From Herpetosiphon giganteus (lineage in GTDB: Bacteria > Chloroflexota > Chloroflexia > Chloroflexales > Herpetosiphonaceae), in contig NZ_JAFBCZ010000001.1 in assembly GCF_016907925.1 (NCBI RefSeq), forward strand, positions 124,001-188,000: 64,000 nucleotides of DNA. The letters run 5' to 3'. The position numbers and the translations under genes were made by a program. The notes beneath the pieces are model-generated. The model was not told the DNA's origin. It was given only the letters and a program-made list of their open reading frames with translations, and did not search any database. This document shows, piece after piece, positions 19,361 through 21,974 of this stretch. Positions within the stretch are counted from its first letter, which is position 1, and each line of letters begins with the position of its first letter.

Positions 19361-20407
19361 ATGCGTCAACCTGAACGTCCGGTTGGGATCGTTGGGTATG
19401 GAGCATATGTTCCGCGCTATCGCATTGCAGCCCAAGAAATTGCCCGCGTCTGGGCCGCTAGCGAAGGAGCATTGCCAATTACATCAAAAAGCGTGCCCGG
19501 CCCCGATGAAGATACGATTACGATGGCGATTGAAGCTGGCCGCAATGCCCTCAAGCGTGCCCAAATCGACCCTCAACAATTAGCCGCCGTCTGGGTTGGC
19601 AGCGAAAGCCATCCCTATAGCGTCAAGCCAAGTGGCACAATTGTGGCCGAAGCGCTCGGCACCTCGCGCTGGATCAGCGCCGCCGACTGGGAATTTGCCT
19701 GCAAAGCTGGCACCGAAGCCTTGAGCGCAGGCATGGGCTTGGTTGGCAGTGGCATGGCCGATTATGTGCTGGCGATTGGCGCTGATACCGCCCAAGGTCG
19801 CCCAGGCGATGCCTTGGAATATACCGCTGCCGCCGCTGCTGGAGCGTTAATCGTCGGCCCAGCCCAGCAAGCGCTCGCTACGATTGAAGCAACCGTATCG
19901 TATGTTTCCGACACCCCCGATTTCTTTCGCCGCGCCGATCGGCCCTACCCGATGCATGGCAATCGCTTCACCGGCGAGCCAGCCTATTTTCACCACGTTA
20001 GCACTGCTGCCAAGCAATTATTGGCCGAATTAGGCCGCACTGCCGCCGATTATCACTATGCTGTTTTTCATCAGCCCAATGTTAAGTTTCCCCAAACTGT
20101 GGCGAAACAAGTGGGCTTTACGCCTGAGCAATGCCAAGCAGGCTTGTTGGCGGGCGAAATTGGCAATAGCTATTCGGCAGCTTCGATGATTGGCTTATGC
20201 GCTGTGCTCGATGTGGCCCAAGCTGGCGACCGCATTTTGCTGGCCTCATATGGTAGCGGCGCTGGCAGCGATGCCTATTCGTTGGTGGTAACAGAGGCCT
20301 TGGTGGCAGCGCGCAATTTAGCGCCCCGCACCAGCGCCTATCTCAAGCGCCGCCAATTAATCGATTATGCCACCTATGCCAAGTGGCGCGGCAAAATTGT
20401 TGAGTAA
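19361..20407 (+). CDS. Hydroxymethylglutaryl-CoA synthase, archaeal type
   Basis: A 348-aa enzyme condensing acetyl-CoA with acetoacetyl-CoA to HMG-CoA for the mevalonate route to isoprenoids. The pattern is that of archaeal HMG-CoA synthases (about 350 aa) rather than the longer animal or Gram-positive forms. The catalytic residues are intact: Glu82 in GSES, Cys114 in WEFACKAG and His237 in FHQPN, plus GNSYSAAS near the C-terminus. AAAGGAAAAA lies upstream of the ATG. A TTGACA at 19250-19255 has no clear -10 partner. The next two genes follow at 13 and 3 bases, the same order as the archaeal synthase/thiolase/DUF35 complex, but both partners look degenerate. Confidence 0.93.
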
Positions 20408-20420
20408 AGGGGTAGGTGCA

Positions 20421-21575
20421 ATGCAACAGGTTTTTATTGCAGGCACAGCCTGTACCGCCGTTCGCGAACATTACGATCGTTCGTTGCTCGATTTGGCCTT
20501 AGACGCGCTGCGGGGCGCGGTTGGCTCGTTTGATCCTAGCCTGATTGAAGCCTTGTATGTTGGCAATGCGCTTGGCGATACGCTCAGCGAGCAAAGCCAA
20601 CTTGGCGCGTATATCGCTGGCGCAGCTGGCTTGAATTGCGAAGCTGTGCGCGTTGAAGCAGCCGGAGCCAGCGGCGCGTTGGCCTTGCGCCAAGGCTATT
20701 TGGCAATTGCCAGCGGCCAAGCAGATGTTGTCGTGGTGCTTGGTGTCGAAAAAGCCACCGACAAGCTAGATGCCGATGTGCAATCAGCCTTAGCCTTGGG
20801 CTTGGATGGCGAGCTAGAACGCGCCGTTGGCCTAACATTAACTGGCGGCTGGGCCTTATTGATGCAACGCTATTTATATCAATATCAACTGCCAGCGACA
20901 GCCTTAGCGCCATTTGCGATCAATGCCCATGCCAATGGCGCTGGCAATCGCAATGCGCTCTATCGCTTTGCCATTAATGCTCAAAAATGGGCCAATGCAG
21001 GCCAAATTGCCGAGCCATTGAATATGCTCGATTGCTCGACAGTTGCCGATGGCGCAGCAGCAGTGGTGTTGGTCAGCGAACGCTACGCCCGCGAAGTAGC
21101 CCAGCCAATCGTAATTGTGGGTAGCGCCAGCAGCAGCAGCACCGTGGCTTTGGCCCAACGCCCTGATCTGCTATGGCTTGAAGCCGCCGCAACTAGTGGT
21201 ACAAAGGCTTTGCAACAAGCCAAACTCGATCGCGATGCAATTGATTTAATCGAATTAAGCGACCCCCATGGAATTGCCGCAGCGCTCAGTTTGGAAGCCT
21301 TGGGCTACGCAGAACGCGGCCAAGCCACGCAATTAGCTGCCGAAGGTGTAATTGCCAAAGATGGTTCATTGCCACTCGCAACCGCTGGCGGCTATAAAGC
21401 GCGTGGCGATGTTGGCGGCGCAACCGGAGTCTATCAAGTGGTCGAATTAGTGGCTCAATTGCGCGGCCAAGCAGGAGCCAACCAAGTTGCCAAAGCCAAA
21501 ACCGCCCTAGCCCAATGTTTGGGCGGCGTTGGCGCAACTGCCGTGACCCATATTTTGCAAGTAGCCGAGGTTTAA
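20421..21575 (+). CDS. Thiolase-fold protein lacking catalytic residues
   Basis: 384 aa from the ATG at 20421 (AAGGGGTAGG upstream). The whole chain aligns by eye with archaeal acetoacetyl-CoA thiolases: NALGD near the N-terminus, the VEAAxASG block, LDCSTVADGAAA, GGxKARG and GATGVYQVVELV at the C-terminus. The active site is gone. The nucleophile Cys of VEAACASG is Gly82 (codon GGA). The His of the HDCF-type motif is Ser280. The His of GHPxGATG is Asp330. The Asn two residues before GG is Ala. The reading frame is intact with normal codon use, so it is kept as a protein. It probably serves as a structural partner of the HMG-CoA synthase beside it, with acetoacetyl-CoA made elsewhere. Confidence 0.85.
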   Translation: MQQVFIAGTACTAVREHYDRSLLDLALDALRGAVGSFDPSLIEALYVGNALGDTLSEQSQLGAYIAGAAGLNCEAVRVEAAGASGALALRQGYLAIASGQADVVVVLGVEKATDKLDADVQSALALGLDGELERAVGLTLTGGWALLMQRYLYQYQLPATALAPFAINAHANGAGNRNALYRFAINAQKWANAGQIAEPLNMLDCSTVADGAAAVVLVSERYAREVAQPIVIVGSASSSSTVALAQRPDLLWLEAAATSGTKALQQAKLDRDAIDLIELSDPHGIAAALSLEALGYAERGQATQLAAEGVIAKDGSLPLATAGGYKARGDVGGATGVYQVVELVAQLRGQAGANQVAKAKTALAQCLGGVGATAVTHILQVAEV

Positions 21576-21578
21576 GCG

Positions 21579-21974
21579 ATGAATTTACCAAAACAATGGC
21601 GGCTCAAAGGCCAACGCTATCGCCTCGAAGGCCAGCGCCACAACGATGGCCGGGTGCGCTTTCCTGCTCAACCAGCCAAATTAGGCGAGGCGCAAGATGC
21701 TTGGCAGCCCTATCAATTGGCCACCACTGGCGAACTTTTTTCGTGGACGGCGCAGCGCAGCAATCGCAGCGAATTTGACCACGAGCCAATCGTCATTGTT
21801 GGCATCATCAAGCTGGCCGATGGCTGTTTAATCACCGCCCAATTGACTGATTGCGAGCCAAGCGAGTTGCAAATTGGCATGGCAGTGGAAGCAGTAACCC
21901 GCAGCTGGGGCAAGGTCGGCGAGGACGATCTGCTGGTGTATGGCTATAAATTCCGACCGCAGTTAATCGATTAA
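21579..21974 (+). CDS. DUF35 OB-fold protein without zinc ribbon
   Basis: 131 aa, starting 3 bases after the thiolase stop. Family members have an N-terminal helix, a Cys4 rubredoxin-like zinc ribbon and an OB fold, and in archaea they bridge thiolase and HMG-CoA synthase. Here the ribbon frame is recognisable (RYRLEG then GRVRFPAQPA, matching RYRLxG and GxVYFPPRxxCP), but none of the four cysteines is present. His21, Asn22 and Asp23 lie where the first pair should be. The OB part (IVIVGIIKLADG, LTDCEPSELQIGMAVEAV, YGYKFRP) is preserved. The loss fits the dead thiolase next to it. Confidence 0.8.
   Translation: MNLPKQWRLKGQRYRLEGQRHNDGRVRFPAQPAKLGEAQDAWQPYQLATTGELFSWTAQRSNRSEFDHEPIVIVGIIKLADGCLITAQLTDCEPSELQIGMAVEAVTRSWGKVGEDDLLVYGYKFRPQLID

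Follow-up and report, generated by a model that had tools for sequence, protein, structure and literature searches.

A thiolase homologue without its catalytic residues is retained beside archaeal-type HMG-CoA synthase in Chloroflexota

In the archaeal complex of thiolase, HMG-CoA synthase (HMGCS) and DUF35 protein from M. thermolithotrophicus (Vogeli et al. 2018; PDB 6ESQ, 6ET9), as described in PMC6392133, PMC12329534 and PMC6996347, CoA is bound at the interface of all three proteins (PMC6392133) and the intermediate is passed between active sites without release (PMC12329534). According to PMC6996347, all the DUF35 proteins structurally characterised up to then bind zinc. HMGCS-like, thiolase-like and DUF35 subunits also make up PpATase, the (PhlA2C2)2B4 Friedel-Crafts acylase of Pseudomonas protegens. 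According to PMC6392133, PhlA has Gly115 for Cys and Cys83 for Glu, PhlC is active with its Cys88, and the authors conclude that proper folding and function of the complex very likely depend on PhlA and PhlB. PMC12329534 describes further proteins with the thiolase fold and without the thiolase Cys: the steroid aldolases Ltp2-ChsH2 and Sal-Shy (6OK1, 9MYR), with Gly for Cys, a YDHF or YDCY motif, a DUF35 partner and steroid hydratases as partners, and the SCP2-thiolase-like protein TbSLP of Trypanosoma brucei (5AB6, 5AB7), of unclear function, with a YDCF motif and no associated DUF35 domain. In titles and abstract openings, with most subscription papers outside our reach, we found no description of a dead thiolase beside HMGCS. 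The alternative mevalonate pathway is functional in Roseiflexus castenholzii, and Herpetosiphon and Chloroflexus have the same type of decarboxylase (PMC3857490).

The window analysed here is a stretch of 64,000 nucleotides of Herpetosiphon giganteus, from a genome of 6.16 Mb in 85 contigs. It holds the three protein types of the archaeal complex, encoded head to tail on the + strand in the order HMGCS, thiolase homologue and DUF35/OB protein, with gaps of 13 and 3 bases. The features are as follows, with residue counts taken from a comparison of alignment columns between 29 intact copies of the thiolase homologue and 54 copies from Chloroflexales:

19361..20407, + strand: archaeal-type HMGCS, 348 aa (TIGR00748 510 bits, cut-off 353; PRK04262 546 bits, cut-off 244)
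19604-19606, + strand: HMGCS Glu82, by residue reading
19700-19702, + strand: HMGCS Cys114, by residue reading
20069-20071, + strand: HMGCS His237, by residue reading
20421..21575, + strand: pseudo-thiolase, 384 aa, a homologue of archaeal-type acetoacetyl-CoA thiolase without the catalytic residues (alignments, profiles, AlphaFold2 model, fold search)
20664-20666, + strand: Gly82 (codon GGA) replacing the nucleophilic Cys, by alignment to 7yvy and 6esq
20850-20852, + strand: Trp144, Trp in 54/54 Chloroflexales copies and Asn in 29/29 intact copies
21258-21260, + strand: Ser280 (AGC) replacing the HDxF His, by alignment to 7yvy and 6esq
21267-21269, + strand: His283, His in 54/54 Chloroflexales copies and Phe in 29/29 intact copies
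21408-21410, + strand: Asp330 (GAT) replacing the GHP His, by alignment; Asp in 50/54 and Asn in 4/54 Chloroflexales copies
21579..21974, + strand: DUF35/OB protein, 131 aa, zinc-ribbon Cys missing (PF01796 51.7 bits, cut-off 27.1; alignment; model)

Residues of the pseudo-thiolase were placed by alignment to the thiolase 7yvy (E 9.2e-77, residues 1-379 of 384 aligned) and to the M. thermolithotrophicus thiolase 6esq (E 1.6e-57, end to end). A sequence-only reading of this gene had claimed an intact frame in which the nucleophilic Cys is replaced by Gly82, the HDxF-site His by Ser280 and the GHP-site His by Asp330; the alignments confirm all three replacements, and the frame is indeed open throughout. 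As a fourth catalytic loss it had listed an Asn before GG turned into Ala. The letter is right (Ala322, GCT), but intact relatives vary at that column, so no catalytic loss can be read from it: intact HMGCS-linked copies have Met (9/11), otherwise Phe or Gln; intact unlinked copies have Arg (16/18) or Met (2/18); and 7yvy and 6esq have Met and Ser, respectively. In classical thiolases the catalytic Asn is part of the NEAF motif, and its position corresponds to that of the HDxF His, which was therefore counted twice.

The protein exceeds the profile cut-offs of PF22691 (130.8 bits, cut-off 28) and PF00108 (53.6 bits, cut-off 26.4) and misses those of the curated NCBIfam families PRK06064 (352 bits vs 420) and NF053570 (295 vs 600). 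It has the full-length homology and the fold of an active archaeal-type acetoacetyl-CoA thiolase, without its Cys and either His. An AlphaFold2 model from 15 input sequences reached a mean pLDDT of 76 and a pTM of 0.83, with weaker stretches within 115-204 and at 321-327, and its best fold matches are 7yvy (P. furiosus), 6et9 and 6esq, with TM values by query length of 0.83-0.90; as modelled, the thiolase fold is kept. In the same kind of search TbSLP showed about 23% identity to the window protein. A steroid aldolase of the Ltp2/Sal type was considered and rejected, since the YDHF/YDCY motif is missing and residues 280-283 read SDPH; the partner here is also HMGCS instead of a steroid hydratase.

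Like the archaeal complex, the window operon encodes an HMGCS that keeps its catalytic residues, and the models of its pseudo-thiolase and DUF35 protein have 6ESQ/6ET9 chains among their best PDB matches. It differs in a thiolase subunit without Cys or catalytic His and in a DUF35 protein without zinc-ribbon Cys. With PpATase it shares one condensing enzyme silenced by a Cys to Gly change yet kept, although the roles are reversed: in PpATase the HMGCS-like PhlA is dead and the thiolase-like PhlC active (PMC6392133), whereas here the HMGCS has its Glu, Cys and His and the thiolase-like protein has lost its Cys.

We then looked at the distribution of the pair, searching 301 Chloroflexota genomes for the thiolase homologue and for HMGCS. 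HMGCS matches of at least 270 bits occurred in 64 of them (the next match had 184 bits), and all 64 also hold the thiolase homologue. The two genes share contig and strand in 63 of the 64, the homologue always downstream, at a distance within 100 bp in 40 pairs, of 101-600 bp in 15 and further in 8 (maximum 2.4 kb); in the 64th genome HMGCS stops at the contig end. In G248, a genome that gave no strong HMGCS match, part of a DUF35 protein is encoded at the beginning of a contig. Altogether, 90 homologues were read from the survey genomes, 64 linked to HMGCS and 26 unlinked. Cys is missing in 53 of the 64 linked copies (Gly 46, Asp 4, Glu 2, Gln 1), from nine family groups, while the other 11, from seven other family groups, have Cys and both His; 24 of the 26 unlinked copies are intact and 2 have Thr instead of Cys.

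A further set of 31 more Chloroflexales genomes plus G061 yielded HMGCS in 28 and the homologue in 27, the difference being G322, whose sequence ends 256 bases past HMGCS. The nucleophile region could be aligned in 26 of these 27 copies, the last being truncated, and was Gly in 24, Thr in one and deleted in one, with no Cys. In one Chloroflexales locus, L241, a short deletion spans the former nucleophile motif. In all the genomes searched, archaeal-type HMGCS was never found without a linked homologue except at contig ends. The best 80 of 408 loci confirmed with the pseudo-thiolase profile, a set that overlaps with the surveyed genomes, comprise 76 without the Cys and 4 intact ones, and HMGCS lies within the fetched stretch at 78. 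These best 80 all bear the title of Chloroflexota or of groups that we take to belong there, including the genera Herpetosiphon, Roseiflexus, Kouleothrix, Oscillochloris, Chloroploca and Chloroflexus and many Anaerolineales bins; the closest named homologues among them are from H. geysericola (97% identity), H. llansteffanensis (95%) and H. aurantiacus (92%). Loss of the Cys is old and widespread in Chloroflexota.

Several loci deserve separate mention. Two bins are likely mislabelled: L184, titled Thermoflexus hugenholtzii, has the residues of G134, from the window's order, and in L166, which bears the title Herpetosiphon sp., the residues follow the GHF pattern of Anaerolineales-type copies, at 50% identity. 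One Oscillochloris bin (Kiruna_bin-09937) has two different operon copies on two contigs (L133, L139) and may be a mixed bin or reflect a duplication. A separate group of archaeal-type thiolase homologues (L082, L083, L244) has Thr at the nucleophile, keeps both His and has no HMGCS link within the fetched stretch. In the Anaerolineales-type loci L160, L176, L188, L152 and L034, a gene of about 325 aa, presumably acetyl xylan esterase-like, lies between HMGCS and the pseudo-thiolase; upstream in L160 is a likely HMG-CoA reductase gene.

Both genes went unmatched in four genomes. G061 had no match for HMGCS, the homologue or DUF35, and G306, G308 and G312 had none for HMGCS or the homologue. 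We considered a joint loss of both genes and dropped it, because a missing contig is as likely: the genes adjoin, HMG-CoA reductase is found in three of the four genomes, DXR in none, and a eukaryotic-type HMGCS match in G308 only. G061 and G306, Chloroflexales genomes rated complete, have HMG-CoA reductase and no archaeal-type HMGCS, PF01154 or DXR match, a pattern that may come from an assembly gap or from an unrecognised route to HMG-CoA.

Neutral decay can remove catalytic residues, and a pseudogene or a sequencing error was considered as an explanation. However, mean pairwise dN/dS (Nei-Gojobori) of the pseudo-thiolase was 0.060, 0.054, 0.071 and 0.087 in four genus groups (in group g4, dS was almost saturated and no value could be computed for 3 to 9 of 21 pairs); values in the same groups were 0.025-0.042 for HMGCS and 0.029-0.069 for DUF35. 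The gene is thus under purifying selection. Open frames and the same replacements across many genera and assemblies likewise speak against decay, and on its dN/dS of 0.054-0.087 we rejected this explanation, to which we give practically no credence.

Among the 88 columns invariant in the 29 intact copies, 76 were not replaced wholesale in Chloroflexales and 12 were replaced in at least 90% of the Chloroflexales copies (50, 67, 82, 140, 144, 280, 282, 283, 325, 330, 331 and 367), including the three catalytic columns and, close to these, columns 282, 283 and 331. On a less strict criterion, 138 columns are conserved in both intact groups; Chloroflexales keep 75 of them at 90% or more, and the remaining dead copies keep 80. 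Change is therefore strongest at the catalytic columns and their neighbours, yet it is not confined to them. At the nucleophile column the 54 Chloroflexales copies have Gly (52), Thr (1) or a gap (1) and in no case Cys, so the residue pattern is not a matter of chance; the HDxF His is kept in 2 of the 54 and the GHP His in none.

The protein might still be a thiolase that uses another nucleophile, and Cys205 and Cys366 do lie within conserved segments, that of Cys366 being CxG-like, where classical thiolases carry their second Cys. However, no Cys column reaches 90% in the 54 Chloroflexales sequences (Cys205 89%, Cys366 72%), and both His are replaced. Another Cys as nucleophile was accordingly rejected, in the absence of any Cys column present in all Chloroflexales copies, and we regard continued thiolase activity by such a route as very improbable.

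By its own account, the sequence-only reading would be contradicted by measured thiolase activity or by an alignment that places a conserved Cys or His at another point of the active site. On the Cys side nothing of the kind appeared, since no Cys column is conserved in all 54 copies, and His170 is common to intact copies; on the His side it did in part, because His283 is invariant in Chloroflexales where intact copies have Phe, so a repurposed site may hold. Such a site (Gly82, Trp144, Ser/Thr280, His283, Asp330) would carry out another CoA-thioester reaction or act as a sensor tuning HMGCS. Trp144 and His283, present in 54/54 Chloroflexales and 0/29 intact copies, together with Asp330 in 50/54, favour it and could indicate a new function rather than mere scaffolding; their invariance within the order is the best argument for a new role. 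The Cys-less homologues Ltp2 and Sal are moreover aldolases that work with a DUF35 partner (PMC12329534), although their YDHF and YDCY motifs are absent from the window protein. Against this, the residue set occurs in Chloroflexales only. In dead copies from other groups the nucleophile is replaced by Gly, Asp, Glu or Gln and both His columns vary: the HDxF His is often kept, and the GHP His often gives way to Phe or Asn. One new chemistry therefore cannot extend across the clade, and the strongest argument against a new role common to all is that Trp144 and His283 are absent from these copies. The tie to HMGCS, besides, is equal in all dead copies. We thus hold a repurposed site to be unlikely, and find equally doubtful its more specific form, a regulatory or catalytic subunit whose rebuilt site (Gly82, Trp144, His283, Asp330) would bind a CoA thioester, perhaps acetoacetyl-CoA or HMG-CoA, and control HMGCS.

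When the three catalytic columns were left out, a tree of 92 proteins united the 53 dead linked copies in one clade (96/89). A separate Cys loss in the Chloroflexales copies was not rejected by the AU test (p 0.306), and the HMGCS tree needs three switches between dead-partner and intact-partner operons; the Cys may consequently have been lost once or a few times. A comparison of alignment sites gave three at which linked copies agree, whether dead or intact, while unlinked ones differ, and none in the reverse direction, a faint hint that linked copies may keep an interface.

The HMGCS Glu, Cys and His are present in all 60 loci in which the three columns are readable, the window copy included; two further loci are truncated and show only the His. 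The window DUF35 model (pLDDT 78, pTM 0.69) best matches the DUF35 chains of 6esq (E 5.7e-8), and PF01796 and the fold search both place the protein with OB-domain DUF35 proteins; in the alignment it lacks all four zinc-ribbon Cys, a loss on which the sequence-only reading was silent. None of the Chloroflexales DUF35 proteins found has a four-Cys ribbon, five "partial" ribbon flags there stemming from a CxxC upstream of the DUF35 gene start. The four Cys are kept at 15/15 loci whose linked thiolase is intact (one or more genomes being counted twice) and mostly also, where a DUF35 protein was found, beside dead copies outside Chloroflexales, with the exception of a few operons (L077, L159, L165, L167). 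Because the ribbon is lost in Chloroflexales and these few other dead operons, the assembly there cannot be just like the archaeal one. Fourteen genomes without DUF35 in the fetched stretch have an orthologue elsewhere, 74-90% identical to that of L033 and often on the same contig. Most Chloroflexaceae-type loci (L011, L012, L014, L016-L021, L023-L029) have a predicted membrane protein of about 200-300 aa inserted between pseudo-thiolase and DUF35.

Acetoacetyl-CoA would be made by separate thiolases. The window genome has one HMG-CoA reductase match and, away from the operon, three conventional thiolases with intact motifs (L001-L003). Conventional thiolase (PF02803) matches occur in 59 of 60 Chloroflexales genomes, and residues read in 11 of these proteins (L001-L003, L104-L111) are all intact. 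G313, the one genome without such a match, carries HMGCS together with a dead copy; its thiolase gene may be missing from the assembly, as the genome is 92% complete. In the families f13 and f45, all 22 genomes with a dead linked copy also hold an unlinked homologue, of which 18 read as intact and 4 have intact motifs; next to those 18, the fetched stretch shows neither HMGCS nor DUF35. The source would thus be conventional thiolases in Chloroflexales and the unlinked intact paralogue in f13 and f45.

The 22 unlinked copies could also be read as partners of the dead ones, the two forming a heterodimer that would serve HMGCS as a mixed thiolase. In the 301-genome search, however, the gene occurs in 28 Chloroflexales genomes, of which 27 have a single match and G086 has two, and in the further set the second homologue of G329 is also without Cys (THH), so nearly all Chloroflexales are without an intact archaeal-type partner. 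We rejected the heterodimer as a general explanation on this ground and think the chance that it accounts for the pseudo-thiolase slight.

The protein probably descends from an acetoacetyl-CoA thiolase subunit, the nucleophile of which disappeared long ago, and was retained as a non-catalytic subunit of an HMGCS/DUF35 assembly. The sequence-only reading had likewise proposed a pseudo-thiolase kept for the complex, with acetoacetyl-CoA coming from another enzyme; it is supported in part. One of its four residues, the Asn, was misassigned, but the catalytic residues have been lost, the gene evolves under purifying selection and is tied to an HMGCS that keeps its own residues, and intact thiolases lie elsewhere. 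We infer from these sequence comparisons that thiolase activity has been lost and that a complex is formed; against mere retention stand Trp144 and His283, invariant in Chloroflexales. Under retention as a subunit, the pseudo-thiolase and DUF35 would still dock onto HMGCS, and the pseudo-thiolase would supply its own side of the CoA-binding site shared by the three proteins, as in the archaeal complex; HMGCS would need it to bind CoA thioesters or to assemble. Acetoacetyl-CoA would then come to HMGCS through solution, which means that channelling of the archaeal kind would have been given up. Together, the evidence suggests a former enzyme that is now a helper subunit.

The rationale of the archaeal complex is the channelling of acetoacetyl-CoA, and this group of Chloroflexota, spanning the window's order and other families of the phylum, seems to have dropped the chemistry and kept the protein, which makes the purpose of the assembly directly testable. 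If HMGCS still needs its dead partner, what selection keeps would be the shared CoA site or the assembly, not channelling. PpATase would be a mirror image, in that either condensing enzyme of the pair can apparently be silenced and kept. In practice, annotation as "acetyl-CoA acetyltransferase" would assign the first step of the mevalonate pathway to a protein without the catalytic residues, and an operon of this kind borrowed for use elsewhere would need a separate thiolase.
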